From contig NC_083526.1 in NCBI RefSeq assembly GCF_032362555.1, positions 4,546,001-4,610,000 of the forward strand: 64,000 bases of DNA, in the 5' to 3' direction. Position 1 is the stretch's first letter. Every line of letters begins with the position of its first letter. Made by a program: the position numbers and the translations under genes. Below are positions 6,834 to 34,348 of the stretch, in pieces. The DNA is from Amyelois transitella (Eukaryota > Arthropoda > Insecta > Lepidoptera > Pyralidae). The notes under the pieces were generated by a model. The model was not told where the DNA came from. It worked only from the letters and a program-made list of their open reading frames with translations, and searched no databases.

Positions 6834-9800
6834 ATGTACAAATTTACAAACAGTTTAAACTATGCAAACTTGGTTTTGGTATGTATTTACTTCCCTGTTT
6901 ATATTTACTATATAGTCCCTTCTAATCTGTTACTTATTTGTGTTAAACTTTATACAGGTCTCTTTCAAATCTCATTAGGAGGTTTATGTTTTGCTGGTTT
7001 TATTGACATATTTTCTCGAAATTCATATCTTTAATTACAATATAGAGAAATAAGCGCTTTTTTAAGTTCATCTCTTCATTATTATGTACATAAACCTTTT
7101 ATTGTTGTCCCTTACATAACAATCTTCGGACGTCACTTATCCAAATAACCTACAAATGTTTCAAACATTCACAACCTTCACGTAAAACATCAATGAAAAT
7201 TATGAAATTACAGTTCTTGATTTATTGTTGTTTTGATAATTAAACTGTATAAACACCATTAGCATTATGACTGTTTTATGGTTTACAAGTGATTTAATTT
7301 TATAAAACTTAAAAAATATTTCGAATGACCACAAATTTGTCAGAGCGAAATTCAGTAGGTTCATTATGGATGCATGATATGTTTTAATAACAACTTACAA
7401 ATATTCTACATGGCTTTTAGGTGAGGAAACAGCTTGGCGATGGCTCGTGCGCCGCCCTTGTAGTGATGCGTGCGCCCCGGCGTAATGCCGGCAACGAGAA
7501 ATGTCAGCATCAGGTCCCGGTGCCGCCGAAGTCTAGAAAGCTCTTATGGGGCACAATAAGTGCGGCGGTACTTACGGGCGCAGCTGTCGTCTATGCCAAG
7601 TATGTTTTTTATTTTTGATTTCCATCAATAACCACTTTACCTTTTTTATTGTTGGCCAATATGGACTTAAATAGGTTGTTTCAGTCCAGATTTACAGAGA
7701 CTTTCTAGCACCTCATTTTGGAGATGAATTAATAACAAATAATTGACAATACAGCTTAATAATCTGTGATGGCTTGGTTGTTTGTCTCAGGGCAAAGGTG
7801 AATTCTTCAATAAGAAAGAGGACTTGCCACACAAATGGAATAAGATTTTAATTTTTAATTTTACTTAATGTAATAATTACATACAAAAACAAAATGCTTA
7901 GCTATGTTTGTTTAATCTATATGGCAGTTAGAGAATTTTGTTGATTTAAATATTTGATTTTGATTTAATCATTGAGTTAAACATATTTACAATATTTTTT
8001 CCAGGTCCTCCCCAGATACAAGAAACTGGTTAGAATCGAATGCCCCTTGGGCTAACGACGTCATAGCCGTGGTGTACCAGGAGAACACAACATACTGGAA
8101 GTTTACTGTGGCCCAAGCCAACAAGGCTGTGACAGCAGTCACCAATTTCATGTTTGGCAAGGTAAGGTGCACTATGCCATTATCTGATAGGAACAGCATT
8201 ACTACACTAGAGCATGTGAAGAACCTATATGTCAAATTTCAAAATTCTAGAGCCAGCAGTTTGGGCGGTGTGTTGAAGGTTTGTTCAGTCAGTGTCCTAC
8301 ATACATACATACATACATACATACATACATAAAGACATGTTTATATTACTTGCAAGGTAGGCAAAGCCAACAGTCTTGAAAAGACAAAGTCCACATTCAG
8401 CTGTATGGCTTCATTTGGAATTGAGATTCAAATTGTGACAGTGGTTGGAGTGGATTCTATTCTTAAGTGCTGGAAACCACACAGCACTAACAAAAGTTGT
8501 TCAACATGTTCAGCATGTTCTATTCACATATTAATGTGTAAAAATAAAAAAATAAATCTATTACCTTCAAACAGTCTATGGATTTGTAAAAGTCATGGGC
8601 AACAGTTCGTCTCAATTCCAAAACTCAAATTCAATAGTAAGCCTACCAACTTAATATGGCCTGTGTTGTGATTATGACTGTTGTTTGTTTCTACCTTATA
8701 ACATATAAAGACGTGATATTTGTAAGTAAGCAAGAAAATGTTCAATAAAGGAGCACATTACAAATTAAAAACAGTAGTTCATTTCAAAGGCGGGCTTTCT
8801 ATTCCTAATTGGCATCTGAATTTTGTATGTCCTTATTTATTTATTGTTCTGCCCAAAGATAAGGAATAGATTAAGGTTTTTAATTACATATACTGCATAT
8901 GCAGTCACTGTACAAACTATACTACTATTTGTTGATCATTCTTGTTTCCAGGAAGGTGTCACTCCCATGCAATTTCAAACAAGACCCGAACAGGATTTGG
9001 ACAAGGATGCAGCAGAGGCGTTCAAGAGAAAAGACTACGAATGTATGTAAACTTTGTCCAGAACGGTGTCAGTTTCCTAACGTTAAAATAATTTTAATTT
9101 ATTTCATTCATTCATTTTAATTTGTACATAATCATAGGAGCACATTTCTATCACAACAATCAAACAAGAATTATGTAGATAACATCAATTTGTTTATTAA
9201 TAAAATAACATTCAATCAATTAATTTTAAAGCACAGACAAACTGAAGCCCACTTATACTAAAAAAAGGATAGAAAAGACTGAAAGGCAACATTCTGCTGA
9301 ATGGCTGAATTATCGATTTGAGATTTAAATAGTGGTAGGTTGCTAGCCCATGGCATAAAAAAGTTCTTGTATCCTTATTTATGGTAATTAGTGTATTATT
9401 TAAGTTTGTATGCAGGAATACACATGTTACTAGTTTATCTGTGCTTTATATCATGTTGGCAACATTGCTTCATTGCACTAATAACATAATTATGTCTTAC
9501 CTAACAGTGCCGCCTCCGCCGTTTAAACCTTTGTATGTAGAAGAGCAGAAATATGAGACACCCGAGATTGAAACATCTGGTTAGTCCATTTTTTTTTTAA
9601 ATTTCAGTAGCCCTTCTCTGAATGACGATTATGAATGAGCTGTTTTTGTTTTTGCGAATTAAAAAATTTAAAAATTTTTATTCATTATTTTAGGATCTGT
9701 CATATCGCTTAATAATTGTCATATGAATTTAATCCAAATTATATTATGCAACTAATTTTCTGTGACTTACCATTTCAAAAAGGAATCTTCATTTCTTCAA

Positions 9801-12800
9801 ATGGAACTCAAAAATTAAATTTTATCTGGTTCAAGAAATGATTAAATTTTAGGCAAAAAGTTATGTTGGAGTACGCCCGCGGCACTGCCCGCGCTGCACA
9901 TAAAGTTTCGGATAATTTCCCATCCCGCGGGAATATCGGGAAATCCTCTCTCAGTGCCCCTAGACCAAAATTTGGGTTTTCCATTGATATGTTAGTCAAT
10001 CATTCATTCATAAGGCAGTCAGTCAGTTTCTATAATATCCTATAATAAGATTTTGGAGATTTATGTGGAAATTTTCAGAATAAACTATATTTAAGAGTGA
10101 TCATTATATTATATTAAAATATTTTCAGCTACGCTAATCCAAACTGAGAAGTGCGACCCAGTGGAGCCGCCGGTAATAAAGATCACCAAGGATATGATCG
10201 AATTGGAGCAGGAAATGCATGAGAACACCAAAATAGCCATAGACAATTATAAAGTGGCGACAAAACACTGCGCACAATATAATAAAGCTCTATATGAGGT
10301 AAATATTATTACCTATGTACATACATACACTTAACCACGTCTATATCCCTTGCAGGGTAGACAGAGCCAAAAGACTGAAAGGCTATGTTTAACTGTATGG
10401 CTTAATGTTGAAATTGAGATTTGAATACTGACAAGGCACTAGCCCATCGCCTACAAGAAGAATCCTATGTTTATTAGCTTTCCCTATGTTTTGATTTTTA
10501 AAAACAAAATTAAGTTGGTGAGTGAAATTAATGATAAAAGTTAGCCAGCTTTTATTTAATGGCAAGGAGATAATAAATCAGGTCCTAATTTCAGAATCTG
10601 AGTAACAACTTTGACATTTGCTTATGAATATCAACATAGAACCTGTAATAACGTTATTATCCCTTATGGGGTAGACAGAGCCAACAACAACTTGCACGAA
10701 GTGAGAGACGACGTTCAGCTGTGAATTCCCTGTTGCTAAAAATGGTGCTTTTTGACACCTTGAAAAGTATAACGTTATTATAAATTTTTCAGTTCATGGA
10801 GTCTCCGATCGAGGATTTTGATAAAAAGCTTCTTGGTGTCCTGGCTGGTGCTCAGAATGAGCGGAAACTCGCTTATGCCAAGGCCAGGGAGGGATCTACT
10901 AAGGCCAAGTGTGCATTGGGTAAGACACAATATTTATCTCTTTTTTTTTTGTGGGTTTAATCAGTGTGAATATCTGATAGGCGGATCCCAGACCCGTAGG
11001 AGGCTACAACTCACCCCAGGAGGTTATAACTAGGCATACGCATATATGAAGAGAGAATATAATATATCTATTAAAGAACTTAAGAGATAGAAAGAAAAAA
11101 ATCAAATTTAATCAACAATGCCTTTTTCATATAAATGTACACTTTGAGAAAGGACCATTCCATGGTTGTCGTAAGAGAATGTCTCAATTTTATCATTAAG
11201 CCTATATAAGCTATTAAAAGCTGAATGTGGCCTATCAGTCTTTTGAAGATTGTCTACCCTGCAAGGGATATATAGACGTGATTATATTTATGTATGACCC
11301 AAATTATTTTTATTTAACAAACCTTTCTATCTTTCTATCATTAAGCCAAATAGCTGAACGTGGCCATTCAGTCTTTTCAAGACTGTTGGCTCTGTCTACC
11401 CCGCAAGGGATATAGACGTGACCATATGTATGTATGTTTCTATCTTTCTCAGATACCCTGGACCGCCTGATCAAATCTGGTGTTCAAGCGCCCCCCGAGT
11501 CTATAGCTCAGACATTACGTTACATCAAACAGTTCAGAAACGATTTAGCCAATGCCGAAGAAGCTTACCAAGCGGAGTTCGAGAGGTCTGTCGTTGCTGA
11601 CAAGTATTGGAACAAGGTTAGTTTCAGAAGAGAGTATTTTTTCAGGGATTTTATCTCACCGCCACCACCACGGTAAGGTCCGGTTAAAATGTGTGTGAAA
11701 AAAGGCACATACGTACATTAGTTTGAATACTAACCTATCCTTTTACGGCGAGAAACATCGTGAGGAAACCTGCACATTCAGGCAACTGGATGTGTAACCA
11801 TGATCGATCCGATACGGATAAGGTGCCCCTGCAAAGGTTGGGGAGGTCAGACGGGAGTTGCTTATATGTATATATCGAGCTACAATTATATATACGTCCA
11901 CGGTTTAGATTGAAGAGATCTATATTTGTAAATTGACGCCCGGTGAAAATGCTGCGTAGTGTAGTTTGTTTCGCCGCATCTTCTACACCTGTGTTTTGAA
12001 AGCGTTAGTAATTATAATTAGATTTAAGTGATGTGACGTCAATAAGTGATACCTAGTGTCCAATTTTGAAAATAAATCTATTCTATTCTATAAAATCTTT
12101 AATTTAATTTCTAGGTACAAGCCGCCAGAACGATGTTCAAGGATGAGTTGCAATCGCTGTTCCCAGGCATCGACCTAACCACTAGGAAATTGGACCTGAG
12201 GGGCGACACTGATTTACTTCTGCTGTATGCTCTCAAAAGGGTATGTTACGCACACTTAATAGCAGAGTGACATATTTAGTATTTTTTTTTACTAAGGAAA
12301 AGTGTGAGAAGTTAAAAGAAACGAATTGATTAGTAACTCGTCATTTAATGATTACTAATTTCTGATGATGAAATTCCAATGAAATTAGTAATAATTAAGT
12401 GACTAAGCGCGGATAAGGAAGGACGATGCCACTATGAAAGCCTTTTTATAGCTTATGTGTCAGGGTGCTAGCACATCTATCATAAAATCTTAAGAAGTAT
12501 AAACCTTTTTTATTCGTTACTAGATTAACAATAAAGCATCTTCTATAACGCATATCTTTTATACTTAACAAAATATTGATACATACATATAGTCACGTCT
12601 ATATCCCTTGCGGGGTAGACGGGGCCAACGAAAAAAGACCGAAAGGCCATGTTCAGTTGCTGAAAATAATAGTTCCACTCCATCTCTTTCTTGTCTACAC
12701 ATTACATTTCATGTCTATACTTGAAATATGAAATTGACACTTGAAATTTGGTTTCAGATTCAATATCTGCAAAGCCAGCTAGCTGAATTGGAGACTGTGC

Positions 12801-15800
12801 GAGAGTTGAAGATCAATAGAGCTATTGAATGTGAGTAAAGATAATTTCACGAACGTTTCTTGCTCCTTTAATACATATACGATCTCAACTACAGTCCATT
12901 TAATCTTTGTGAAAGCAGGATGAAATTATAAATTTAATAAGTGTGAGAAAGATAGACAATATATAAGAATTTCTATGTGTGCTTGTTATCTGATTAAGAA
13001 TTATATTTTTGTTCATACATATTATGTAGGTCATAGCTGTATAATCACGGAAAAATTATTACTTCATGTACTGCCGTTTTAATTTCTGGCCGTCTTTTAA
13101 TATTGCTCAGACTTTTGGGTTTAATCCCTTACTAATTATATAAATGCGAAAGTCTGTTTGTCTGTTCCGCTTTCACAGCTAAACCGTTGGACCGATTTGA
13201 ATGAAATTTGGTATGCATATAGTTGCAAACCCACATTCTAATATAGGATAAGGCCTTTTTGGTAATTCCAATGGGAATGAGAGCTCTTTATAATTTTGTG
13301 ATAGAATAAAATTTAAACTTTTCAACTCTTGCAGGTCACGAAGAAAAAGCCATCATAGAAGCAAAAGTAGAAGATATCATCAAGAAAGAGAGACACATAA
13401 AAGAGAATGAATTCCAAAAAAAGGTATGTTTGTATTTTATGCGAGTGTCCACTTATAATATGTGAAGAGTTGAATACCGTTGATTTCCTAAAATTCGAAA
13501 AATCCAGTCTTGTTGGTCCCCTATGTCACATAACGAACCTACATGCCAAGGTTTAGGTCTATTTTACAATCTTAAAAAAAAAACATGCATAGATATATAT
13601 TTATATCTAATATATTTAAACGAGCAATTCTTGTATATATATAATCAGGATCTCGGAAACGGTTCCAACGGTTTTCATGAAAGTTACAGATTAGGGGCTT
13701 CTCGGCTCAAGTAATTGATTTATCAAGGTAATCCTAGGTTCGAGAAAAGCTCGGTTCCCAAGATATATAAACATTTTAAAAACCGCGTTTTAAGAAACTA
13801 TATCAGCGCCATCTTTGGTAGACCGAGCAAAGCTCGGTCAACCGGGTACTTGTATATTTATATTTTACAATTTGTACACAAATCGGACAATAATGTAGGT
13901 GAAAGTTAGAAAGAAATAGATGATAAAGAATTGGTAAATATATATGGTTCAGTTGTAAACGAGATACGTGACATACATACATACATACATACATAAAATC
14001 ACGCCTCTTTCCCGGAGGGGTAGGCAGAGACTACCTCTTTCCACTTGCCACGATCTCTGCATACTTCTTTCGCTTCGTCCACATTCATAACTCTCTTCAT
14101 ACAAGCTCGGCGGTTTCGGGTACTTTTGACCTGACCCTTTACCAGGACGTCCTTAATTTGATCAAGATACGTTCGTCTAGGTCTTCCCACTCCGACCTTT
14201 CCCTCCACACTCTCCTTGTATATCTGCTTAGTCAACCTGCTTTCATTCATCCTCTCCACATGACCGAACCATCTTAACATACCCTTTTCTATTCCTGTAA
14301 CTACATCTTCTTTCACATCACAACATTCCCTTATCACGCTGTTCCTTATCCTGTCACTCAATTTCACACCCATCATACTCCTTAACGCTCTCATTTCCAC
14401 TGCATTTATTCTGCTTTCATGCTTCTTTTGCCATACCCAACTTTCACTCCCATACATTAATGTCGGGACCAACACGCCCCTGTGCACAGCCAGTCGAGCC
14501 TTTTTGGATAGTTTCTGACTGCTCATAAAGGCATGCAAAGCTCCATTCACCATGTTCCCCGCGTTCACTCTCCTTTCAATATCACTATCATACTTGCCAT
14601 CTGATGTAAACTTTGATCCTAGATATACAAACTCTTTCACTTGCTCCACTTTTTCTCCTCCAATCAAAATATTACATGCTGTCATTTCTTTCTCCATTTC
14701 AAAAACCAGTGTTTTAGTTTTACTTACGTTCACTTTCATTCCTTTCTCTTTTAAAGCTTCATGCATACAGTTTACCATCTCCTGTAACTCCTCCGCTGAT
14801 GACGCCAGTATAACCTGATCGTCGGCATAGAGCAGACATTTGACGAGTAACTCATTCATCCTTAATCCACTTTTAGACTCTTTCAAATCTGTCAAACAGC
14901 TATCCATAAATAGGTTGAACAGCCACGGTGACGCAACACATCCTTGCCTAACGCCTTTCTCAATCTTAAACCACTCAGTGTGCGCTCCGTTTATCCTGAC
15001 ACAAGCACTCGAATCCTCATATAAGGATTTCAGTGCTCGTATTAAGAGACTGCTCACCCCATGCATAGAAAGTGCTGACCACAATTCATTCCTCTCAACT
15101 CTGTCATAGGCCTTTTCCAGATCTACGAATGTGCAATAGACTTTTTGACTCTTGGCCAAAAACTTTTCGGCTATGCACCGCAAGGAAAAGACCTGATCAG
15201 TACATCTCATTCCCTTTCGAAATCCCGCTTGAGCATCCCATATTTTGTCATCAGTTTCATTCCTGACTCTATTAATCAATACCTTAGCATACAATTTGCC
15301 GACGACGCTAAGCAGGCTTATACCACGATAATTTTTGCAGTCCAGCTGTGACCCTTTTCCTTTGTAAAGTGGCACGATAACAGCCTTACACCAATCTTTT
15401 GGTACTCGGCCGCTTCTCCAACACAAATTGAAAAGGCAGTACAACTGACTAGCGATACGTGACATAGTATGTTTTACATAAATGTAATCACGCTCATATC
15501 CCTTGCGGGGTAGACAGAGCCAATAATCTTGAATAAATGAAATTCCACGTTGAGCTGTATTAGTTTAATGATGGAATTGAGATTACATAACATTTTAATA
15601 TTCCATTCACAGAGCCTTGAGGTACAAGCCGAGGCAAACAGGAAATTGAAGGAAGAATTGAAAAAGCAGGTCGAGATTCAACAAGAGGTGCTACAAGACA
15701 AACTCAATAGAAAAGAGAAGGAGGTAAGATTAACAGCTCTCTTTCTGACTATTCCCCTTCATACTCTTTACTCTGACAAAAATACATACATATAGTCACG

Positions 15801-18800
15801 TCTATATCCCTTGTGGGGTAGATAGAGCCAACAGTCTTGACAATACTGAAAGACCACGTTCAGGTGTATGGCTTAATCATGTTATTGATATTCAATAGAC
15901 ACATTGTTAGCCCATCGCCTACAAGAGAAATCGCAAGTTTATAAGCCTATTCCTTAGTCGCCATTTACAAGATCCATGGTAAAGATATGGTTACGGTTTC
16001 TATTCTAAAGTGCCGGAAACCACACGGCATTCAACCCTTACGAGTTTTGATTATTTTCAGGTTATGGCCAAATACGCCCGTTCCGTGTCCGAACAAGTTG
16101 AGAAAGAGCGTGTTGTGTTCAAGAAGGAGTTAGCCGCCATGGCGGGGAAACTGAAGGCCATCGAGCAGACTTTGAAACGTGAGCTTTTATATCTCTATAG
16201 CTCTTGCTGACCCGAAAAGGCACCGGTTCGAATCCCGCCTCGGCCATGTAAAAAGGGCTATTTTGAAGTACTGTAATTTGAATATTAACCGATGCTCTTG
16301 TGGTGAGAGAAAACATCTTTAGCAAACCTGCACATTCAGACAACTAGATGTGTAACCATGATCTATCGGGTACCTAACACGGGTTAGGTTTCCCTGCAAA
16401 GGTTGCGGAGGTCAGACGGGAGTCGCTTCGTGTAAAAACCTGACTCACCCAATCCAGGATCCATGGTCAAAGGTATACCATGGGTTCCTTTCAAAACTTT
16501 TGAGGATATAACTGGGACTAAAACTAGGTAGAAGAAGAGATTTTCAGGTGTTACAGGTTAGTCTTAAACCTGTTGGTAGTTTCTTATTTGACGTTGATGA
16601 TTAGAATAGAATAGATTTATTTTCAAAGTTGGATCCAAGGTATCACTTATTGACGTCACATCACTTAAATCTAATTATAACTACTACCGCTTCCAAAGGT
16701 CATATGCAGAAGAAGCGGCGTAACAAACTACACTGCAGCATTTTCACCGAACGTCAATTTACAAATATAGATCTCTTATAGTATGTACCCTTGTTACAGA
16801 GCGCGCGAAGGCGGAAGCGGAAGCCCGCCGCTCGCAGTCGCTGTGGGCGGCGGGCGAGGCGCTGCTGGCCGCCACCCGCAGGCCGCAGCCGCAGGCCAAG
16901 GTGGACAGCGAGCTCAAGGCGCTGGAGGACGCTGGTGAGTGCCCTTGACCCCAAAAAGACGGGGTCTACTACACAAAAAGACGGGGTCTACTGCACAAAA
17001 AGACGGGGTCTACTACCCAAAAAGACGGGGTCTACTACGCAAAAAGACGGGGTCTACTACGCAAAAAGACGGGGTCTACTACACAAAAAGACGGGGTCTA
17101 CTACACAAAAAGACGGGGTCTACTACACAAAAAGTCGGGGTCTACTACGCAAAAAGACGGGGTCTACTACGCAAAAAGACGGGGTCTACTACGCAAAAAG
17201 ACGGGGTCTACTACACAAAAAGACGGGGTCTACTACGCAAAAAGACGGGGTCTACTACACAAAAAGACGGGGTCTACTACGCAAAAAGACGGGGTCTACT
17301 ACACAAAAAGACGGGGTCTACTACACAAAAAGACGGGGTCACTACACAAAAAGACGGGGTCTACTACACAAAAAGACGGGGTCTACTACACAAAAAGACG
17401 GGGTCGTCTACACAAAAAGACGGGGTCTACTACACAAAAAGAGGGGGTCTACTACACAAAAAGACGGGGTCTACTACACAAAAAGACGGGGTCTACTTGG
17501 TGTGTTCTTACACCTACCACTATTACAACTACCACCGTTTCCAAAGCGTGCTACCATGTGTAGAAGATGCGGCGGAACAAACTACACTGCAGCATTTTCA
17601 TCGGACGTCAATTTCCAAATAGTGATAGATCTCTTAAATCTAAGTCGTGGACGAATGCATATTGTCTACATGATACAATGTCTATGTCACCTTGTTAAAA
17701 ATTACAATAAGTATAAATGCGTATCTTATTTACGCAGGCAAAGGCGACAAATTAGTACAAACGGTGCTGAAGGGCATACCGAATGAGGTTCGTGAGAAGG
17801 GAGTGGCCACGGAGAAAGCTCTACGAGACAAATTCGATGTGGTAAGTGACTGCCTTTTACTGATTTAAGAATAGTTTTTTTTTATTTGTACACAGTACGA
17901 ATAACTGCGATTCTCATTTTGATTTGTAAACAACAGCTTTTGTGATGAATTACGGCTTCTTTTTAAAACTTTTAAAAAAAAATTTACAGGAGTTCAAAAA
18001 AAAGTAGCCTACTTTTTACCTTATTGATGATACATGTGATTAATTATATTCACACAAATTTTCACCAGAATTGGTTCAGAAGTTAAGCCGTAAAAGCATA
18101 ACATAATTTCACATTTGTTATGTTAGTATGAAAGCATGGACATTACATAGATTAGTTTTTTTTTAACTATTATTATTGTAAAATGAGACAACGAGACAAT
18201 TTGACGGCCACTGTGGCTCAGCGGTAGTACGCTTGTCTGTGACACCGGAGGTCCCGGGTTCGAATCCCGGTCAAGGCATGATGAGAAAAGAACTTTTTCT
18301 GATTGTCCTGGGTCTTGGATGTTTTATGTTTATCTATATAAGTATTTATTATAAAATATAGTATCGTTGAGTTAGTTAACACAAGTTTCGGACTTACTTC
18401 GAGGCTAACTCAATCAGTGTAATTTGTCCCGTATATATATTGTCCCGTATATATATATTTATATATAATTTCTTTTCAGTTGGAAAAAACAGCAATGAAG
18501 GTAGCCTTAGTCGGTCGCGAGGGGGCCTCTCTGCCTATCTATTTCCTCTCGTGGTTGCAGTCCAAACTTCTCTTCCAGAAGGTAAGACATTGTTTATTTT
18601 CGTTTACAGTATTAACACTTTAATAGAATAGCTCAATCGATTGGGAATCAAATCGTATGAAAACTCAATAAAATAACGACCTTATTACAAGGACATTATT
18701 ACATATATGGTTGACTGGAAGATATCCCTTCATGGGATAAGTCCGCCATTTCAAGTTATTTATTTCTTTTATAACTATGTACTATTTCTTGTAACTGTGT

Positions 18801-19823: not shown

Positions 19824-21153
19824 GGCTGGGGGGCGGCACCGCGTGAGGTAATAGAGCGACAGTCGAATCGGTAAGGGGGCACCTTACCGATTCGACTGCT
19901 GCATCTCTAGTGGGCTGGGTGGAGGCACCACGTGAGGTAATAGAGCGTCAGTCGAATCGGTAAGGGGGCACCTTACCGATTCGACTGCTGCATCTTTAGT
20001 GCGCTGTGGGGCATCAGGCACCACGTGAGGTAATAGAGCGACAGTCGAATCGGTAAGGGGGCACCTTACCGATTCGACTGCTGCATCTCTAGTGGGCTGG
20101 GTGGAGGCACCACGTGAGGTAATAGAGCGACAGTCGAATCGGTAAGGGGGCACCTTACCGATTCGACTGCTGCATCTCTAGTGGGCTGGGTGGAGGCACC
20201 ACGTGAGGTAATAGAGCGTCGGTGGTGGAATAGGTAAGGGGGCACCTTACCGATTCGACTGCTGCATCTCTAGTGGGCTGGGTGGAGGCACCACGTGAGG
20301 TAATAGAGCGTCGGTGGTGGAATAGGTAAGGGGGCACCTTACCGATTCGACTGCTGCATCTCTAGTGGGCTGGGTGGAGGCACCACGTGAGGTAATAGAG
20401 CGTCGGTGGTGGAATAGGTAAGGGGGCACCTTACCGATTCGACTGCTGCATCTCTAGTGGGCTGGGTGGAGGCACCACGTGAGGTAATAGAGCGTCGGTG
20501 GTGGAATAGGTAAGGGGGCACCTTACCGATTCGACTGCTGCATCTCTAGTGGGCTGGGTGGAGGCGCCACGTGAGGTAATAGAGCGTCAGTTGAATCGGT
20601 AAATGGCACCTTACCGATTCGACTGCTGCATCTCTAGTGGGCTGGGGGGCGTCAGGCACCACGTGAGGTAATAGAGCGTCAGTCGAATCGGTAAATGGCA
20701 CCTTACCGATTCGACTGCTGCATCTCTAGTGGGCTGGGGGGCGTCAGGCACCACGTGAGGTAATAGAGCGTCAGTCGAATCGGTAAGGGGCACCTTACCG
20801 ATTCGACTGCTGCATCTCTAGTGGGCTGGGGGGCGTCAGGCACCACGTGAGGTAATAGAGCGTCAGTCGAATCGGTAAATGGCACCTTACCGATTCGACT
20901 GCTGCATCTCTAGTGGGCTGGGGGGCGTCAGGCACCACGTGAGGTAATAGAGCGTCAGTCGAATCGGTAAGGGGCACCTTACCGATTCGACTGCTGCATC
21001 TCTAGTGGGCTGGGTGGAGGCGCCACGTGAGGTAATAGAGCGTCGGTGGTCGAATAGGTAAGGGGGCACCTTACCGATTCAACTGCTGCATCTCTAGTGA
21101 GTTGTGAGGCATCAGGCACCACGTGAGGTAATAGAGCGTCGATGGTCGAATCA
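19809..21153. repeat. About 92-bp tandem array starting at the Mic60-A stop codon
   Basis: About 14 units of roughly 92 bp (the spacing of repeated landmarks is 92). The first unit starts inside the coding exon at CTGCTGCACCTCTAG, the last four codons plus stop; later units repeat CTGCTGCATCTCTAG. Most early and several late units contain a 17-bp perfect palindromic arm (CAGTCGAATCGGTAAGG and its complement) with a 5-nt spacer; a block in the middle has a diverged left arm. Each unit has an E-box CACGTG within ACCACGTGAGG. A polyadenylation signal follows at 21277-21282, so the array probably lies in the Mic60-A 3' UTR. Confidence 0.95.
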
Positions 21154-21276: not shown

Positions 21277-21282
21277 AATAAA
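21277..21282 (+). terminator. Candidate polyadenylation signal of Mic60-A
   Basis: First AATAAA after the tandem array, about 1.45 kb past the stop codon. Cleavage site not determined. Confidence 0.4.
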
Positions 21283-23242: not shown

Positions 23243-26200
23243 ATGTTCAGGATAACAAATTTGGCACTGAACGCCAGAACTATATTGGTGAGTACCTATC
23301 GCATAGTCTAGTAGCAATTAATTATTTACCATACAAATTGACAAATTCAGGTTGCTGATACTGTTATTACCATATCTACCGTAAAATAGCGATATAATTT
23401 GTTTTTCAGGCTTTATTATCGCAGTTCAGATAAATCCATAATGGAAATAGAACCTATAAAATAGTATCAAGCAATGTTCGAAGGCGGTTAAGAATAACAC
23501 TTTATTAGGTTAGGATTTTCAAGGCAAGACTGAATAGGCACTGTTTGAGCTTGTATGCACCTACTAAGGCCTCATCTTGCTTATCACCAGGCAGATTGAT
23601 GTCAAGCTCACTCAAATCTTTAAAAAAAGGGTTGAAAAAACGGGCTAAGATGTCGAACCCTTAGATTTTTGGGCTGTTGTCATAATTAATGTACGCAAAG
23701 TCGTTAATCTAGATTTCCAAAATTGCTTCTTGTAGTCAATGGCAGTCCAGATGGCGATCGTTAAGCCATGTCAAATGCCTTTAGGCGGTCTGAAAAATGT
23801 AACACCAGGGTTGGCCACTTACACGATAAAACATTTATTTATTTATTTACGCCAAAAAAACAACGGTAGTAGTACACCTCTTACAGTATTTGGCAAGGAA
23901 TTCTTATAAGTATAACAAAATAAAATCTGTCAAGATTTTGTTAAGTCTTCATTTCAACTAAAAGGACAAATAATAAGTATACTATGGGTAAGAAACACAT
24001 AAACATAAAGTAACCAAGTTTACTTCCGCAGTACCGCCGTCACCCCATCGAAATCCAAGCAGCCAGCGTCACCCATATTCCCCCTCTCCACAAGAAGTAC
24101 AGCCCAGCTGAGCGCGAGACCTGCCCCCCTCCACCGCCGCCGCCACCTCCCCCTCCTCCCGATCAACGCCTGCTTTGGAGTACGATAGCATTGATGGTAC
24201 TGACTGGAGGATTCGCTGTTTTCGCCCAGTAAGTTTGTTTGTAGATATATCAAAAAAAACTAGCATTACACACTTCCCCTACTACACATACATTCCAGCA
24301 GAACCTACCCCCCTCTGCCGCCGCGGGGTAGACTGAGCCAACCAACAGTCTTGAAAAGACTGAAAGGCCACGATCAGCTGTCCAGCCTATGAGGCGTGCA
24401 CCTACCTGTGCACGGTAGCGGTATGATGATGCACATGCTGCTACGTCGACGCCGGACATAAAAGAAAAAAGTAAACAAATAAGTGCCGTGTGGTTCCCGG
24501 CACCAATACAACAAAGAATAGGACCACTCCATCTCTTTCCCATGGATGTTTGAATCCTATCTTAAAGCCAAATAGCTAAACGTGGCCTATCAGTCTTTAA
24601 AAGACTGTAGGCTCTGTCTACCCCGCAAGGGATATAGACGTGATTATATGTATGTATGTATGTAAACAAATAAAGATAATCTATTTCAGGAAATCGCCAC
24701 AAGTTCGCGATTGGCTATCTCTGAACGCGCCATGGTTTGACGACTTCATAGCTGTTTTGTACCAAGAGAACATGACATACAAGGAGTTTGTGATGAAACT
24801 CATTAATGATGTTAAAAGTGGGAAGAAGGTAGACGATAAGAGGCCGAAGGAGTGCAGTTTGGACGGGAAGCCTGTGGGTTAGTTTAAATTGGTAGATTCT
24901 AGTAATCGTGTACCAGAAGATCTTTTTCTCTGCTCTGCTCTTTAAAAAAAAGTGTTATATTTCTTATGTCTTAATTTATTCTCAGCTACATTTGTTTTAT
25001 CATTTTAGTAACTGTGCCAACAGAAGAAGAGCTGAAAGCCTTGGATTCAGGTAAAATAAAGATATCAATTATGCTACTTGCTATTGCCGGCGATTTCGTG
25101 CACGCGACCTCTATTCCTACCTTTTGAGAATTTCACTACAATAACTTGAATCAGTGTATTTTGAATCAACTGAGGATGCAATACCAAACCGCAAGTCAAG
25201 TTACCTTTCATGGAACTTTATGACTAGGTAAAAGCGGTAATTTTGCTCTGAATTTGGGTAGGTTGATGAGCTTCTGATGAATGGGCAATAGACGTTTCAT
25301 TCTATAGTTGGAAGCCATTAATTCGATAAAAAATAAAACATCGAACATTTATATAGTTTTTTTTTTAAATTATGATGGCAACCAGGTTCTGAAAATGGCG
25401 AGATCTGTGATATAGTCCCGCCCCCCGGGAGCGTGGACATCTGCGACGTGGAAAGATGCCTGAAGGAGTACAGTGAAGCCATCATTCACAACCTCATCAC
25501 TGCTAGAGATGCTTGTGCTTTCTATAATAAGGTAAGCTAATATATGCAAAAAGGATTTAGCCAAGGGTTTGAATGAAAGCGAATTGAAGTGTGGCAAGTT
25601 TCTATACGTCACCGTATTATAACCAAGAGAACTGGCCAGTTCAGAGGAGGTGCCCAAACTAGAGAGTATCGATGACTCTTCAGTGCCTTTTAGTCCTCAA
25701 ACACGCTTTACAGATCGTAGGATACGATTTGGATAACTTCAACAAACGGTCACGATTGGCTTAGTTTTCGCCAGTTCATAAATTGTAAAAAGCAATTAGG
25801 ACTTAGCACTAAAAATGATTCATATACTGAACAGTCAGCCTTTTGACTAAATTATTAAATAGGGCGTAAAAAAAGGATTGAACGCGGATAAACAAAGCAA
25901 GTATAATTTCCTAAATATTGCAGGAAGTGGAAGAAGCAATGAAAGACTTCAGTATAGACTGCCTGGCCAAGCTGAACGAGTATAAGACCGAGAGAGAAGA
26001 TCTTGTGCAGACCTCTTTTGATAATATCGAAGCAACGACAGTCAAACTTGGTTAGAAAATTCACTTCAAAGTGTTTTTTTCTAGCGTTTGTGATAATGAG
26101 GATGCGCATAATGAGGAACCCAGAACTGACTGACTTAGTAAATTACAGGAAGCGACTGCCGTTTGAAGGCAACGACGTCTCTGTGACACAATATTTTCTC

Positions 26201-29200
26201 ATTTCTAGCTTGTTTTAAAATATGGTCCCGTACCAGTCTAATCAGTCTCCCGATTGAGGGCAGCACGGTCCAAAGCCTTCCAGAGATTGGCGTGTGTGCC
26301 AGTCCTGATCATGAACTTCCTCGTTGTTGGTACCCAATTCTGACCCCATCGGTTCAGATCCTGATCCTACAAACCAGGTCCTCAAGTGAAATCTATGTTA
26401 AAATGAAACGTGATGCACTACTACTTACCAAATAAGTGATCTTAATTTTTTGCTTCATCTAAAATTAATTAGATTAAGAATACTCTTGTCCTTTCCCAAA
26501 AACATCTCAAATTTAATCATGATACATTCTTTTAGACCTTCCCATTTCATAACCAACTAAGATTCTCAAGGCTCCAACTCGCAACGTAGAAAGGTACATA
26601 GTTTTAAATGTTTTGTCCAATTTTGTCATGATCTCGTATATCTACAGAGCAAGTCACTCGCTATTTCGAATGCGGGTTGAAAGCCACCAAAGCGGAGAAG
26701 GACTGCACTCAAGTCATTCTAGACGACTTCCGTGATAAGATAAAGATAGCAGACGCAGAGTACCAGTGGCAGAACGATAAGAGTGTGGCTTTGGATGGGC
26801 TTTTGTCGCGGGTATTTACAGTGGTTCTCTATCTATTAGCATAAAATTTTGTGTCATAATTTTACATGGCATACGTTTGTTTAGCCTAATAATTGTTACG
26901 CATAATATTATTTGGCATAACTTTTTAGGCATATTTCTTTAAGCATACACTATTAACATAACCTAACCTAAGAAGTACTCGCCTTATAGCGCATTACACT
27001 ATATCTGCTCCACGCAAAAAATAAATTAGTCTAAACTATATTTATGCCTGTTGAAAAAGTATGCCAAAACCAATTATGCCAAAAAATAGTATGCGTAACT
27101 AAAATAGGACAAAAAAAAATTAGACGAATGAACCGCCACAGAGTTTAAATCTACGTATTAGAACCTAAATTGAATATTGTTGTACTAAATTAAGTGTTTA
27201 TTCCCTTAATCGTGCATAATTATGTGAAGCCTCTTTCAACATAAAAAAGAGATGAAATGATTCTATTCCACCACCACCCACAGTTCTGCCAACCTTCCGG
27301 TTATACGAGTTGAATCATCGGAGCAGTACGCTGCACCCGTGTTTGCTCTCATCTCCAAAATGTCATTACAGCCCCTTTAGTTCTGTATTATTCAATGGTC
27401 CTATAGTGTCGGGAACCACACGGTACTGTATTTACTTCTTCCTCTTGACGCTAGTCCCGGTTACAATATCTATAAAGGAGGAGCCCTTGACCATAATCCC
27501 GGATTTAGTAAGTCAGGTTTTTATATAAAACAATTCCCGTCTTACCTCCTCAACCTTTGAAGTGGGAACTTAACCAATAAATATTCGATCCCGATAAAAC
27601 GACGTGCCGTGTGGTTCCCGGCACCAATACAAAAAAGAATGGGACCACTCCATCTCTTTCCCATGGATGTCGACCAAGGGATAGGCTTATAAAATTGCGA
27701 TCCTATTTTTTAGGCGATGGGCTAGCAACCTGTCACTATTTGGATCTCAATTCCATCATTAAGCCGAGCAGCTGAACGTGGCCATTCAGTCTTTTCGGGA
27801 TTATTAGCTGTGTGCACCCCGTAAGGGATATAGACGTGACTGACTATATGTATGTATGTATAAAACGACACTGGATCACTGTTTAGTGCACCAATTCATA
27901 ATTTCTTTCTTTCCATCGATATTATAACACAGGTGGAAGAGTTTGTGCTCACGTACACCGAGGAGATAGCCACCCTGGTCCCAGGTGTGGACTTCAAATC
28001 TCCAAAACCAGCAGCCAAGATGGTGGGAGATCCAGACATCCTCTTGTTTCACACGTACAGATACGTAAGAAATTTTATGAAGTTTTATTTATTCATGTGT
28101 GGTTCCCGGCACTAATATAAAAAAATAATAGGACCACTCCATCTCTTTCCCATGGATGTCGTAAAAGGCGATTAAGGGATAGGCTTACAAACTTGGGATT
28201 CTTTTTAAGGCGATGGGCTTGCAACCTGTCACTATTTGAATCTCAATTCTATCATTAAGCCAAATAGCTGAACGTGGCCATTCAGTCTTTTCAAGACTGT
28301 TGGCTCTGTTTACCCCGCAGAGGAGCCATATAGACGTGACCATATGTATGTATGTATGTTTTATTCATTCATTTATGTAGGGAGTCAATAAAGAGTGCGC
28401 TGTTATAGAAAGTAGCCCACTCCTGTGAGTTGGCTTGTAAAACCAGAATGTTGGTAGGACGGTGGTGAAATCAGTCCCGTTTACGGTTACGAGAAGTTGT
28501 GACCACGATTCTGCAGTAGGTAAGTTAGGTTTTTATACGAAGCGACTTCCATCTGATTTCCGCTTCAGGGATTCTTTATCAATTATTGGATCATGTTTTT
28601 TTTATTCAATATTGGATAAGGTATTTGTCTTTTATCTTAGTCTTCCATCTCACCTGATGGTAAGTGACGATGAAGACGAAGATGTTACATGCTTATCCCT
28701 AAAAGATATATCCTAAATGAGTAAATCTCTTGGATCTCTCATCTACTTTTGAACCTTTGCGGACATTGCTTGTCATGGTTATACATCCAGTTGCCGGAAT
28801 GTTTTTTCTTACCGCAATCATACGTTAAATGCATGGATAAGTCCCTAATTTATTTATTATTTTAGTTAAAACAACTGGAAGCGGCCATAGCAGAAGGGAA
28901 TGAGCAAATGGAACACAGAGTGGACCGCGGAATGGCAAGTGAGTGACGTGGTCTTGCCTCCACATCTTTGTTTGTTTATTTGTTTGTTTGTTTGTTACTT
29001 TGAACACGCTTATCTCAGGAACTACTGGTTTGAATTGAAAAATTATTTTTGCGTTAAATAGACCATTTATCGAGGAAGACTTTAGGCTATATAACATCAC
29101 GCTGCAACTATAAGGAGCAAAGAAATAATGGGAAATGTAAAAAAAAAACGGGAAACATTATTCATCCTTGAGGGCTTCAATGATGTCCTAAATAATTATA

Positions 29201-32200
29201 CCACGCGGACGAAGTCGCGGGCACAGCTAGTGTATTATATAATATATCCTTTCACACTTATTTTGCGAAGTGTTTTCGAGTAAGCTTTCAAATAGATTAA
29301 ACTAATTTGACTAGCCTCCGCAGCATTCCACGCACGTGGCCGTTTTTATCGAGCGATAAACTATCGCTATTTCGCTTTTTATTATGACGTGAAACGGGAC
29401 CGCGATAGTGTTATGCGCGATAATGGCGGCGTCGCGCGTGCCATACTACGGCGGTTGACGGTTTAGCATAGCGTATTCGATTTGAAAACGAAAATATTTC
29501 TTATATTTAAATATTTATTATTAGGTATACTAATAAGAACATTAGTAGGTATACCTAAGAAATTACAAGGAAATAGTAAGAATTATTATAAGGAAATAGC
29601 ACTTTCGAAGAAAAAAAAACTGTGATATACCTTTAGACCATATTCTTCTTTTATTCTTGAAATCTTTATGGGGGAATAACAGGAGAAAAATATTTGATTA
29701 TTTTTATCAATTTTCTTTTGCTATTTCACAGCATTGCCTGCTGACAATGAAAAGGTGGTTAGAGCGAGAGAAAAGAACGTGGCGGCGGGTGTATATAAAC
29801 TGAGAAAGGAAATGGATAGAGAGTTTGCTAAACGGGTATTTATTATATACAATAACGTCTTTTTCCCGTACGGGGTGGACAGAGCCAACAGGCTTGAAAA
29901 GACTGAAAGGCCAAGTTCAGCTGTATGGCTTTATGATGGAATTGAGATTCAAATCGCTTGCTAGCCCATAACCTAGTTATTTACAAAATAAAGTACTTTT
30001 GGAATGGACTACATCACATTGTGGGAAATAGATTATGCGCGTAATTTTAGTAGCTCAAATACCAGGTCGTGAACTGTCATTTGACGCGACACTTGAGACA
30101 GAGAAAGAATTTAATATCCCGAATTTATTTACGTCTTTTATTCAGCTCTACGACCAGCAGACGGCAAATGCAAAGGCTTTGAAAGATGCGTTAAAAAAGC
30201 AAGCGGATAAGCATGAAGAAACTACTAAAGTAAAACTGGCGCAGAAGGAGAAAGAGGTAAGGCGTGTTGTTTCGACTCTAACAACCTTCCGGGAGTTATG
30301 GGAGCACTCTTTCATGACTCCCTACAAAATCCCTCACCTAACGAGTTTTTAGTGTCCCTACAAAAGTGTAGGGACCCTAAAAACTAGTGATACAGAACTA
30401 ACCTGTTAGTTATGTCTGGGTGAATAAGCCCATATTTTGGACTAAACAGTAACAGTACACACTCGTCCATATCATCAACATTCTTAAACGAATGAATGAA
30501 TAAAAGTTTATTAGCATCACACAAATATGTATGTTACACTAAAGTATTTAGTCAAAGTAAAATTAACAGTTGCCTAAATTGTAACACTAATCCGAAGTCC
30601 ACTCAGCTTGTGTCGGGGCATTTTACAAGACTCCGACGCTGGTCTTTCGGGGACACCGGTCCATCATGACGATTCTGAAATAAGTCCAAGTTCTTTCGTC
30701 ACCTCTGTTACGTGGAGCCCGGGGTTCTATTACCATTATCCTGGTTAAGGCAGGGTTCTACATGAAGCTACTCCCGTCTGATCTCTGCAGCCTTTGCCCA
30801 GGAACCATATTAGATGATGATGACATATCCAACAGTGAGGGAAAACGTGTGGAAACCTGTTCATTCAGGAGATTCCTCACGATGATTTCCCTCACTGTAA
30901 GAGCGTCAGTCTTGGTTATTGTCAAAGTAATTAAGTACCTATTTGAAACACAGAGCTTAGTGACCTTGAACAAAATGGTGGCTGAAAAAGTTGCCTCGGA
31001 GATGAAGAATTTCGCGCTTCAACTCAAAGAAATGGAGAACAAGTTGAAACTTGTCGAAGATAAACTGAGAGGTAAGTTTCATACAGTAGATTTTTTATAT
31101 TCACCATCTTCTTGGTTTTAGTATTTTAAATAGGCAGGATTTTGGCATCATGGTTTTTTAGTCTGGTACTTTAAAGATATCTATCTACACCGAGAAAAAT
31201 CATCTCTAGGTCCATCTTTAGAAATATAAATGAATGCATTTCTAACAAGAACATGGAAACATTAGATGTACGCATATATGAAAATGTTTCCAGAGCGTCT
31301 AAGAGTAGAACGCGAGACGAAAAGGGCTCAAGAGTTATGGATGGCGGGCTCGGCACTCCTGGCTGCGACCAAGAAAGGAGGCCCTGTCGTTAAAGTGGAC
31401 AGAGAGATCAAAGCCATTGAGAGGGCGTCTAGTAAGACCATTGTTTATTTTATTTTATTTGGAAAACATAAATCTTGTACAAAATCTCATTTAGCTACTT
31501 TAGACCATTTACATAGAACACACAAATGGTGTGTGAAAACATCGTCAGGAAACATTCAGGCAATTAATTGGTAAACGGGTAAGGTTCCCCTGCAAAGGTT
31601 GCGGAGTTACGATGTGAGTCGCTTCGTGTAAAAAGCTGGGTCATTCAATCCTGGATGAAGTGAAGAAGGTGCACCCCGGCTCCTCTCCGGTGAGGATGTA
31701 ACCGGAACTAACGACGGGAGAAGAAACATAAAAATATTTTTTTTCCTTATGAGGTAGAGAGTGCATACAGTCTCAAAAGGCTGAAACGCTATGCTCAGCA
31801 GAATGATCAGCTCATCAAAATAATGTTGTCCTATTGTCCAAATCCTAAATAAATTAAATGATTTCACAATCTTACCCGTTAATAATACTGCCCTTTTTTG
31901 AGTTACTAAACCAGCATTCAAAAACATTCATAATTGAATGAATGGTTGGATCAGTTTCCATAAAGTTTGTTAAAAGATGTGGATTGGCAAAGTTTCGGAG
32001 TAGACTGCCACAAAGGGAAGACATTCCGTCAGATCCAACAGAAAGAGTATTTGTATTATTTGATCAGTTGAAATTAAAAAAAAAAACAACTTTATAAAAC
32101 GCAAATGTAACATTTGACAGGTAAAGAAGACAAACTGATGCAAACCGTACTGAAAGCGATACCGCAGTCGGTACGGGAGAACGGACTCGTCCCTGAAAAT

Positions 32201-34348
32201 ATTCTCAAAACTAGATACAAACAAGTAAATACTTTATTCTTATTATCACTCCACCACTACACCTTAAAAATAACCCAGGTAGCCACGACTGATAGACTTT
32301 AATTTTTGGACATGTCTGCTAGGAAAATGCAATGTAATTTCGTATGCAAATTAAACATTGAAATTCGACGAAAATTTAGCTTTTTAGCTGTAGTCTGCCA
32401 GATCGAATCAGGAATGAGGAGATTAGTAGACGAACGAAAGTAACCTACAAAGCAGCTCTGGTCAGAAAACTGTGGTGGCAATGCGCAGCCCACATTACCA
32501 GAAAGCGCAGCGTAGGACGGCCCCCCGCGAGATGATGGACCGATGATCTGGTGATGATGATGATGTGTGAAGTCCGCGGAGAAACGTTGGATGCAGGTCG
32601 CTTCCAACAGAGCGAGGTGGAAGTCATTGGGAGAGGCCTATATTCAGCAGTGGACGTCCTACGGCTGAAGCGATGATGATGAATGAGAAACAGATTCTTG
32701 GTCCTAATACTTTCTCTATTGATGCCGGAAACTACAAGGCACTACTATCAGATATGGTAAATAACATAAATGAAGGTGTTTGTGTCAGATGGAGACGGTG
32801 GCCATGAGGGTGGCGCTGGTGGAGTCGGACGGAGCGCCGCTGCCGGTCTACTTGCTGTCATTCGTGCAGTCTTTATTTCTTTTTATGAAGGTAATCTTGT
32901 ATCACAGTTAAGGTAGCCTTCAAATTGCTCTAAGCTCAATTCTTTCATTAAGCCAAACAGCTGGACATGGCCTATTGGTCTTTTCGAGACTGTTGGCTCT
33001 GTCTAACAGGCAAAGGATATAGACGTGATTATATGTATGTAAAAAATCTGGATCCTTATATGGAACCATTGTCGAGGAACTGTTAGGTAAACTAAAATTG
33101 TTTTCGAGTGAATTTTAAATAAAGGTACATACTGGTAATGGAAAACAAAACATCGTGAGGAAACCTCTACATTCAGGCAATGTGTTATCATGATTCAAAG
33201 GCTCAGATGGCAGTCGCTTCGTGTAAAAACGTGTCTCATCCAATCCAGAGTTCATGGTCAAGGGCGCACCCCGGACTCTCTCCAGAGTAGGGAGGATATA
33301 ACCGGGACTAATGCCAGGAGAAAGAAGTTAATTTTAATGGTTATGTTAATGCGGAAAAAGTTTAAGTGCGCGTATTGTACTTGACGAAATTCAAACAATT
33401 CAGTAACTGATACAATTGAATTAGCATTAAGGAAGTTCCTTTATCTTATTTCAATTGAATTTAACATACAAAGTTCCTTTATCTTATTTCAATTGAATTT
33501 AACATACATACATATAGTTACGACTATATGTTTCTTGCGGGGTAGATAGAGCCAACAGTCTCGAAAAACTGATAGGCAACGTTCAGCTGTTTGGCTTAAG
33601 CCAAATTTTGTCATTAATGATAGAATTGAGGTTTGAAATTATTGACTATTAAAATTATTGAATTAAAAATGTAATTAATTATCATAAAACGTTGGTAGAA
33701 ACCATTTGGTTTGGTTGTTTCAGTTATCCGGAATCCCTCGCGCAGAGATTGAGAAGCCTCCGCCGGAGCCTTCCAAAGATTTGGATACGTTCGATTTGTT
33801 GCAAAGAGCTAGGTACAATTGTCTCAATTTTTTTGGTTAGTCATCCATACTGTAGATATGTATATGAAGACAAATGGAAAATTATGCGTCTACGACATAA
33901 AATTACGAGTAAGTTCTAAATCATTCACGATCTCTGAATACTTTGGTTTTGCATCATCGCCATTTATCATAAGGCGCACCGCTTTAGCCAACTGAACGGA
34001 TTTTACTTGATCTTGAATGACTTGTCGCAATGGGACTGCTGGGACGTAATCGTCCCACAAGGACAGGGTTTTTTTTTAGTAATCTTATAGGGGTTTCTAG
34101 AAGGAAATCTTTGTCATAAATACTAACTAATGTAAGAGTTATATCAGGATTAATGTAAGAGTTATTTCAGGTTTTGGGTAGAACGCGGCAACTTGGCCTT
34201 AGCGTTGCGTTACGTGGACTCCTTGCAGGGCGCGTCCCGGGCGGCCGCCGCGTGGTGGTTCGAGGCCGCTCGGGACCACCTCGAGACGAGGCAGGCGGCC
34301 GAGGCGATAGTCGCGCATGCCGCAGCCCTAGGGCTCCAGAACATTTAG
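23243..34348 (+). CDS. Diverged tandem paralogue of Mic60 (mitofilin), copy B
   Basis: Complete 17-exon gene, 685 aa. Exons: 23243-23287, 24032-24228, 24690-24877, 25009-25050, 25386-25531, 25924-26050, 26648-26811, 27933-28064, 28866-28938, 29732-29835, 30146-30256, 30954-31071, 31294-31431, 32121-32224, 32789-32890, 33724-33812, 34171-34348. Exon 1 encodes exactly 15 residues (MFRITNLALNARTIL), as in copy A; eight further exons have identical lengths (127, 164, 73, 111, 118, 104, 102, 178). Residues about 62-80 are the membrane helix (LLWSTIALMVLTGG), preceded by 12 prolines (about 47-58) absent from copy A. The conserved stretch after the helix (DWLSLNAPWFDDFIAVLYQE) matches A. The C-terminal mitofilin domain is intact (GNLALALRYVDSLQG, DHLETRQAAEAIVAHAA), 32 of 58 residues identical to A in the last exon by hand alignment; the coiled coil is far more diverged. 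No stop or frameshift, so the gene looks functional. A tissue-specialised MICOS role, for example testis, is inference only. Confidence 0.9.
24300..24395 (-). repeat. SINE-1 fragment
   Basis: Retains CCGCGGGGTAGACTGAGCC and GTCTTGAAAAGACTGAAAGG; lies in Mic60-B intron 2, head to head with the next copy. Confidence 0.55.
24480..24665 (+). repeat. SINE-1 copy, internally deleted
   Basis: Head AGTGCCGTGTGGTTCCCGGC, TCTCTTTCCCATGGATGT, then a jump to GCTAAACGTGGCCTATCAGT and a TATG tail. Ends about 25 bp before the acceptor of Mic60-B exon 3. Confidence 0.75.
27440..27590 (-). repeat. SINE-2 copy
   Basis: Contains GACGCTAGTCCCGGTTACAA, GTAAGTCAGGTTTTTATA and TCTTACCTCCTCAACCTTTG, the reversed body. 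Confidence 0.6.
27605..27862 (+). repeat. SINE-1 copy, full length
   Basis: All landmarks from GTGCCGTGTGGTTCCCGGCA through TTTAGGCGATGGGCTAGCAA to the CCCCGTAAGGGATATAGACG tail. In Mic60-B intron 7. Confidence 0.85.
28092..28360 (+). repeat. SINE-1 copy, full length
   Basis: Starts TGTGGTTCCCGGCACTAAT and ends with the TATG tail; the tail block has a small insertion (CCCGCAGAGGAGCCATATAG). In Mic60-B intron 8, which starts only about 30 bp upstream. Confidence 0.8.
28480..28830 (-). repeat. SINE-2-related mosaic
   Basis: Contains GGTTTTTATACGAAGCGACT, ATGGTTATACATCCAGTTGC and TTTCTTACCGCAATC, separated by unrelated DNA. Probably two broken copies. Confidence 0.45.
28966..29230 (+). mobile_element. 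Helitron-like non-autonomous element, 3' part
   Basis: Contains TAGACCATTTATCGAGGAAG, TATATAACATCACGCTGCAA and CTTGAGGGCTTCAATGATG, and ends in a hairpin GCGGACGAAGTCGCGG, then CACAGCTAG before T. A hairpin followed by CTRR next to T is the Helitron 3' signature. Related copy at 52975-53372. In Mic60-B intron 9. Confidence 0.7.
29330..29470. repeat. Dispersed repeat, unclassified
   Basis: GC-rich island in an AT-rich intron with GACGTGAAACGGGACCGCGA and CGATAATGGCGGCGTCGCGC. A related but diverged stretch (TTTTATCGCGCGAAAACTAT; AAACGGCGTCCCGCATGCCA) occurs in a P450 intron at about 40905-41240. Class unknown. Confidence 0.4.
29853..29970 (-). repeat. SINE-1 copy, 3' part
   Basis: Begins 17 nt after the donor of Mic60-B exon 10 with the reversed tail block CGTACGGGGTGGACAGAGCC; contains GAAAAGACTGAAAGGCCAAG. 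Confidence 0.65.
30705..30905 (-). repeat. SINE-2 copy
   Basis: Contains ACATGAAGCTACTCCCGTCT, AGGGAAAACGTGTGGAAACC and TTTCCCTCACTGTAAGAGCG, apparently parts in both orientations. Ends about 50 bp before the acceptor of Mic60-B exon 12. Confidence 0.6.
31565..31720 (+). repeat. SINE-2 copy
   Basis: Contains CCCCTGCAAAGGTTGCGGAG, GTCGCTTCGTGTAAAAAGCT and GGATGTAACCGGAACTAACG in family order. Confidence 0.75.
31721..31815 (-). repeat. SINE-1 fragment
   Basis: Retains TTCCTTATGAGGTAGAGAGT and GTCTCAAAAGGCTGAAACGC. Directly follows a SINE-2 copy. Confidence 0.5.
32400..32690 (+). mobile_element. LINE 3' end with ATG-repeat tail
   Basis: The final frame reads WMQVASNRARWKSLGEAYIQ followed by QWTSYG and a stop, then GATGATGATG. 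This is the common C-terminal end of one lepidopteran LINE lineage. The upstream part is frameshifted, so it is a dead 5'-truncated copy in Mic60-B intron 14. Confidence 0.7.
32925..33042 (+). repeat. SINE-1 3'-half
   Basis: CAGCTGGACATGGCCTATTG, GACTGTTGGCTCTGTCTAAC and the TATG tail; begins about 35 nt after the donor of Mic60-B exon 15. Confidence 0.65.
33135..33335 (+). repeat. SINE-2 copy
   Basis: ACATCGTGAGGAAACCTCTA, GTCGCTTCGTGTAAAAACGT and GGATATAACCGGGACTAATG in family order. Confidence 0.75.
33410..33510 (+). repeat. Short direct repeat, two copies of about 47 bp
   Basis: The block containing AAGTTCCTTTATCTTATTTC and AATTGAATTTAACATACA occurs twice in succession, the second copy perfect, immediately before a SINE-1. 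Consistent with a target duplication or local slippage. Confidence 0.6.
33511..33640 (-). repeat. SINE-1 copy, 3' part
   Basis: ATAGTTACGACTATATGTTT, TTGCGGGGTAGATAGAGCC and CGTTCAGCTGTTTGGCTTAA. Confidence 0.65.

Follow-up and report, generated by a model that had tools for sequence, protein, structure and literature searches.

The 64,000-nucleotide stretch of the Amyelois transitella genome analysed here (the window) carries two complete Mic60 genes, arranged head to tail. Mic60 is the protein that gives the inner mitochondrial folds their shape; the human mitofilin gene is named IMMT. Judged by sequence, both copies are Mic60, and their origin in one old tandem duplication is well supported. 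We consider it likely (probability of about 0.6) that both are working Mic60s derived from this duplication, and that the downstream copy B has been kept by selection, most likely in an alternative MICOS of particular cells. The housekeeping role of an ordinary Mic60 probably falls to the upstream copy A.

Gene structure and domain content

Copy A extends over 6834–19823 (+ strand, 18 exons, 708 residues) and copy B over 23243–34348 (+ strand, 17 exons, 685 residues), with a gap of about 3.4 kb between them (Table 1). The exon models, which represent predicted splicing, were assembled manually and verified with a script. As modelled, all 17 introns of A and all 16 introns of B have GT–AG ends, and neither copy contains an internal stop. 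The initial annotation had claimed two complete tandem genes, which was borne out by the intact frames and by Pfam Mitofilin scores above the cut-off in both copies. Its start at 6834, its end at 34348 and its first exons of 15 codons were exact, as were the nine equal exon lengths (45, 127, 164, 73, 111, 118, 104, 102 and 178 nt) and the four further exons differing by multiples of three (126/132, 89/104, 135/138 and 86/89, i.e., 6, 15, 3 and 3 nt), so that every length difference among the 13 matched exons is a multiple of three. Thirteen of the 16 B introns fall in the same alignment column and phase as their counterparts in A. The remaining three agree in phase and are displaced by 1, 4 and 6 columns in a poorly aligned linker. 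The proposal of a common exon architecture stands for the nine equal and four near-equal exons, but it had omitted the different exon numbers (18 versus 17) and the shifted introns of the 5′ part, where A exons 2–6 (179, 157, 91, 72 and 170 nt) face B exons 2–5 (197, 188, 42 and 146 nt).

Table 1. Coordinates of the Mic60 exons, of examples of the dispersed repeat, and of related loci elsewhere in the genome (positions refer to the window unless a locus is named)
Feature	Position	Strand
A exon 1 (start codon, putative N-terminal presequence)	6834..6878	+
A exon 2 (membrane helix LLWGTISAAVLTGAAVVYA)	7421..7599	+
A exon 3	8005..8161	+
A exon 4	8952..9042	+
A exon 5	9508..9579	+
A exon 6	10129..10298	+
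A exon 7	10793..10919	+
A exon 8	11453..11616	+
A exon 9	12115..12240	+
A exon 10	12758..12830	+
A exon 11	13335..13423	+
A exon 12	15613..15723	+
A exon 13	16061..16178	+
A exon 14	16800..16934	+
A exon 15 (start of region before mitofilin core)	17738..17841	+
A exon 16	18480..18581	+
A exon 17	18858..18943	+
A exon 18 (mitofilin core, stop codon)	19646..19823	+
B exon 1	23243..23287	+
B exon 2 (12 consecutive prolines followed by membrane helix LLWSTIALMVLTGGFAVFA)	24032..24228	+
B exon 3	24690..24877	+
B exon 4	25009..25050	+
B exon 5	25386..25531	+
B exon 6	25924..26050	+
B exon 7	26648..26811	+
B exon 8	27933..28064	+
B exon 9	28866..28938	+
B exon 10	29732..29835	+
B exon 11	30146..30256	+
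B exon 12	30954..31071	+
B exon 13	31294..31431	+
B exon 14	32121..32224	+
B exon 15	32789..32890	+
B exon 16	33724..33812	+
B exon 17 (mitofilin core, stop codon)	34171..34348	+
Repeat of about 250 bases (examples)	19141-19384, 28097-28355, 27604-27859	
Diverged second Mic10, intact, two coding exons	locus L004, 620-1674 (contig C19)	
Two Mic19-like genes	loci L013 and L019 (contig C2, about 4.8 Mb apart)	

The Pfam Mitofilin profile (PF09731, cut-off 27.4 bits) matched nearly in full length. A fitted it better overall (315.1 bits, residues 53–701, profile positions 4–614) than B (200.2 bits, residues 63–678, profile positions 9–614). The C-terminal fragments scored 182.2 (A) and 141.1 (B) bits, in agreement with the earlier description of an intact mitofilin domain in both, and the coiled-coil fragments scored 64.1 (A) and 34.9 (B) bits. 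Searched alone, the N-terminal fragment of A remained below the cut-off (15.3 bits), and that of B had no match listed. The mitofilin cores also matched the solved Mic60–Mic19 fusion 7pv1 (E = 2.1e-6 for A and 0.0028 for B).

The membrane helix that had been placed in exon 2 coincides with the top 19-residue hydropathy window of each protein (A 56–74, mean 1.70; B 62–80, mean 1.95). Past residue 110, the best window reached 1.07 in A and 1.62 in B; the latter lies in the C-terminal part and makes a ‘single’ membrane span less clear for B. By composition count only, the first 35 residues hold 5 K+R and 1 D+E in A, and 4 K+R and 1 D+E in B. For the central coiled coil, a home-made measure of heptad contrast was reached by 9 of 500 shuffles for A and by 30 of 500 for B. 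In the helix preceding the mitofilin core, the best 18-residue moment, also a home-made measure, was 0.508 in A (97th percentile of its own protein) and 0.359 in B (76th), and an earlier fixed window over the same region stood at the 72nd and 21st percentiles, respectively. By eye, both copies have a basic–aromatic pair (KF, RY), which may correspond to Chaetomium R572–F573. When the last exon was modelled by itself, a single long helix resulted, and the mean confidence of the five models varied widely (91.6 down to 63.0).

Both genes are immediately followed by tandem repeats, with a 92-base satellite (14.6 copies, 19809–21140) at A and a 13-base array (34359–34683) directly after the stop codon of B. 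The satellite begins inside the last codons of A. Its unit carries CTGCTGCAYCTYTAG, which is the final four codons and stop of A, with 15 occurrences between 19809 and 21083; the 3′ end of A itself may have been the source from which the array expanded. Intron 14 of A contains a 22-base minisatellite (24.9 copies, 16952–17497). A reverse transcriptase domain (142 bits) occurs in a 521-residue open frame of intron 11 of A (13999–15564, − strand); on visual comparison, L013 contains a nearly identical-looking frame next to a Mic19-like gene. The introns of the two genes also contain, many times and in both orientations, a repeat of about 250 bases that is dispersed whole or in parts, together with some other repeats. 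Upstream, a ribosomal protein L35 frame (5750–6352, − strand, 56 bits) stands head to head with A, about 480 bases separating the open frame from the start of A, and a shared promoter is possible. Beyond it lies a fragment of a fumarylacetoacetate hydrolase domain (2328–2669, − strand, 27.4 bits, cut-off 23.9). On the far side of the pair, exons of a cyclic nucleotide phosphodiesterase were recognized (50230–56364, − strand; PDEase_I, 137 and 28.8 bits), accompanied by a GAF match that narrowly missed its cut-off.

Divergence of the copies and past constraint on B

The similarity of the two proteins is far beyond chance (blastp E = 1.8e-103), with 242 identical residues at 670 aligned positions (36%). 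Identity is distributed unevenly, amounting to 34% (68/200) in the N-terminal part encoded by B exons 1–5, 26% (70/269) in the coiled coil (B exons 6–12), and 52% (104/201) in the C-terminal third (B exons 13–17). The count of 32 of 58 identical residues given earlier for the last exon was reproduced, and the much lower likeness of the coiled coil was confirmed. The coiled coil and the linker may have drifted, and both copies probably still bind Mic19 and the membrane, the stretch predicted to do so being the best conserved.

The raw proportions of silent and replacement differences were pS = 0.73 and pN = 0.45; a proper dN/dS estimate requires intermediate sequences because the silent sites are near saturation. 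In the C-terminal third, pS was 0.70 and pN 0.31, the value of pS elsewhere being 0.75. Gene conversion is an unlikely source of the similarity in the C-terminal third, because the silent sites of this region are nearly as diverged as those elsewhere. In the mitofilin core, 24 residues of A and 23 of B were identical to Chaetomium Mic60 over 69 columns; in 5 of the columns the identity is confined to A, and in 4 to B. This relative-rate comparison has low power; the two copies being about equally far from Chaetomium Mic60, it gave no sign of a faster B in the core. Noncoding comparison of the loci by blastn returned one last-exon match. The other matches, taken together, resemble repeats dispersed among the introns, many of them oppositely oriented. 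The shared introns, intact frames and Mitofilin scores support well the old tandem duplication with both copies kept that the initial annotation had put forward.

Neutral evolution was simulated from A down to 70, 55 and 35% identity, which yielded at least 3, 9 and 8 stops, respectively (300 runs each); B has none. Since every neutral run at 35% identity had at least 8 stops, B is no old pseudogene, and for its past this reading is ruled out by the simulation and the intact frames. We infer from the coding sequence that B was under selection through most of its history.

A Mitofilin profile search of the assembly (327 Mb, 33 contigs) pointed only to the last exons of A and B. All 48 of its 48 candidates were scored, and only A and B emerged, each through its last exon alone; because the search works exon by exon, a third copy that has diverged strongly could have escaped it. 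Scanning viral contigs with the last exon gave 81 pattern matches, none of which was confirmed.

Other MICOS genes in the genome

Two intact Mic10 genes were found, one on contig C4 (63.4 bits) and one on contig C19 (44.8 bits), with a cut-off of 24.1. By hand reading, each has two coding exons with the intron at a matching place, and 27 of 77 aligned residues are identical. An exon search for further Mic10 genes, carried to E = 5, returned only these two.

The CHCH profile matched at five places in the genome, one of which was judged to be of Mic19 type. The exon of this type found a second gene at C2:1.66 Mb (42% identical, E = 0.0018), which reads as a three-exon protein starting MGGSQSTRK; Mic19 likewise starts with MG. 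The gene at C2:6.43 Mb has a similar-looking first exon with an unsettled junction. Exons 2–3 of the two genes encode 39 identical residues out of 99 (E = 2e-21). In both, the first CX9C motif is interrupted by the last intron, at an identical position. Against CHCH and DUF1690, which we take to be the fungal Mic19 family, the assembled proteins gave weak matches, all below the cut-off. The name Mic19 is based on the layout of the genes and on these weak matches. The dedicated MIC19_MIC25 profile found neither gene at the exon level, which we regard as a false negative because the CHCH and exon searches found two such genes.

Mic13 is represented by one clear gene on contig C8 (92.8 bits, cut-off 26.6). 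A second candidate, on contig C17 (L007, exon AGILVGAVYFTYTQGVWGD), is doubtful; it scored 23.1 bits, below that cut-off, and was missed by the Mic13 exon search. For Mic26/27, the ApoO profile gave no match at the exon level, and it matched in no control either.

By sequence, second copies thus appear to be present for Mic60 and Mic10, and for Mic19 less surely by name. Of the control families, LETM1 and Tim44, each profile produced four matches, which fall at two loci; on this evidence, second copies are not special to MICOS. Both domains have two animal genes each (LETM1/LETMD1 and Tim44/mL45), and the controls do not settle a general duplication for this reason. The second copies may reflect general duplication of mitochondrial genes, or families that have two members. 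The specialised MICOS proposed in the initial annotation gains indirect support from the diverged second Mic10 and the Mic19-like genes, but the controls at two loci each weigh on the other side.

Possible roles of copy B and comparison with known systems

In Chaetomium, an amphipathic helix located between the coiled coil and the mitofilin domain enables Mic60 to shape the membrane, whereas Mic19 is bound, by its CHCH domain, to the mitofilin domain (PMC5460017). By the mechanism that we propose, A and B would each be imported into mitochondria, cross the inner membrane once near the N terminus, dimerise through the coiled coil and contact the membrane by the helix before the C-terminal domain. 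Their mitofilin domains would bind Mic19 and thereby pin crista junctions. Copy B would act in an alternative MICOS, which we think most likely because Mic10 and the Mic19-like gene are each present twice in the genome. The first candidate site would be the male germ line; there, in insects, mitochondria are rebuilt into long derivatives.

A further-reaching reading, which we put forward only tentatively, assumes two parallel MICOS: a housekeeping one and a diverged alternative that shapes the sperm mitochondrial derivatives and perhaps differs between the two sperm types of moths. The former would comprise Mic60-A, the Mic10 of C4, the Mic19 of C2:1.66 Mb and the Mic13 of C8, and the latter Mic60-B, the Mic10 of C19, the Mic19-like protein of C2:6.43 Mb and perhaps the Mic13-like one of C17; this pairing of partners shares the tentative standing of the whole. 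Use of B in the testis, which the initial annotation had also suggested, would be reasonable given that Drosophila has testis-enriched MICOS genes (PMC11012351). Among the Drosophila genes, 6 of the 11 predicted for MICOS are testis-enriched, with Mitofilin outside the six, and the source calls their role in spermatogenesis unstudied (PMC11012351). Germline knockdown of mitofilin in the fly is described as causing strong infertility (PMC10249743). In moths, other sperm genes, Ccdc63 among them, have been duplicated, and the copies have become specialised for different sperm types; the main text of the study mentions neither MICOS nor Mic60 (PMC11288676). On the opposing side, a Lepidoptera sperm proteome study, the main text of which contains neither ‘mitofilin’ nor ‘MICOS’, reports no widespread role for duplication in the divergence from Drosophila (PMC5712127). 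In Spodoptera, a Mic60 gene, the copy being unspecified, is listed among those repressed in adult heads (PMC10702092).

It is rather unlikely, in our view, that B is a working Mic60 serving only as a second broad isoform, for dosage or partial redundancy, with no distinct MICOS. The retention of the membrane helix and mitofilin domain in both copies would fit such a role, as would the absence of a clearly faster copy in the mitofilin core (5 A-only versus 4 B-only of 69 columns), the single clear Mic13 gene and the example of C. elegans, which keeps two Mitofilin genes whose double deletion is worse than either single one (PMC10394014). However, the coiled coils are only 26% identical (70/269), and second Mic10 and Mic19-like genes exist, both of which argue against this reading.

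A dying or recently silenced gene, with lesions yet to gather, would be in line with the lower Pfam score of B, its slightly weaker splice donors (mean 6.06 of 8 consensus positions versus 6.59 in A, p = 0.054) and its poorer pyrimidine tracts before the acceptors (0.57 versus 0.64). We regard this as quite improbable in view of 17 exons with no stop and no frame loss, 13 matched exons that differ in length only by multiples of three, and silent change exceeding replacement change even near saturation. It is similarly improbable that B kept the fold and took up another job, for example tethering membranes in the mitochondrial derivatives of sperm. The divergent linker, the polyproline run of exon 2, the poorly kept coiled coil and the weaker amphipathic helix of B could point that way, but its C-terminal third is the best-kept part (104/201) and scores 141 bits as Mitofilin.

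If the preferred reading of B in an alternative MICOS is true, this animal would have a spare crista-junction machine owning its Mic60, Mic10 and Mic19. Swaps between the copies could then be used to find the regions of Mic60 that determine the shape of cristae, and the pair would offer a handle on how MICOS shapes insect sperm mitochondria. If B is instead a broad duplicate, the pair would be a natural test of which Mic60 regions may change freely.

Among the open-licence papers listed by our literature searches, we saw none describing a Mic60 duplication in Lepidoptera or in any other insect. The description of Mic60 as usually single-copy, made in the initial annotation, needs qualifying, as C. 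elegans has two Mitofilin genes (PMC10394014). Deletion of either one cut a ligand signal there, and hardly any of the signal was left when both were deleted (PMC10394014). Like A and B, the immt-1/immt-2 pair shows an animal retaining an additional Mic60 gene (PMC10394014), probably of independent origin; the passages on the immt genes in PMC5423972 and PMC8277142 contain nothing on how they arose.

The N-terminal helix and C-terminal domain of the Mic60/mitofilin family (PF09731; Drosophila Mitofilin) are present in A and B, together with a middle part that looks coiled-coil-like, and both cover nearly the whole profile. The Drosophila source names one Mitofilin (PMC11012351), in contrast with the two diverged tandem genes described here. 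Its testis MICOS genes resemble our second Mic10 and Mic19-like genes in being extra subunit genes of an insect, although the place of Mitofilin off the testis-enriched list counts against the testis analogy (PMC11012351). Two mitofilin-domain paralogs in one organism are likewise described in Trypanosoma, where TbMIC34 and TbMIC40 are soluble and split from the membrane part, whereas A and B are whole (PMC12989075 for the trypanosome proteins).
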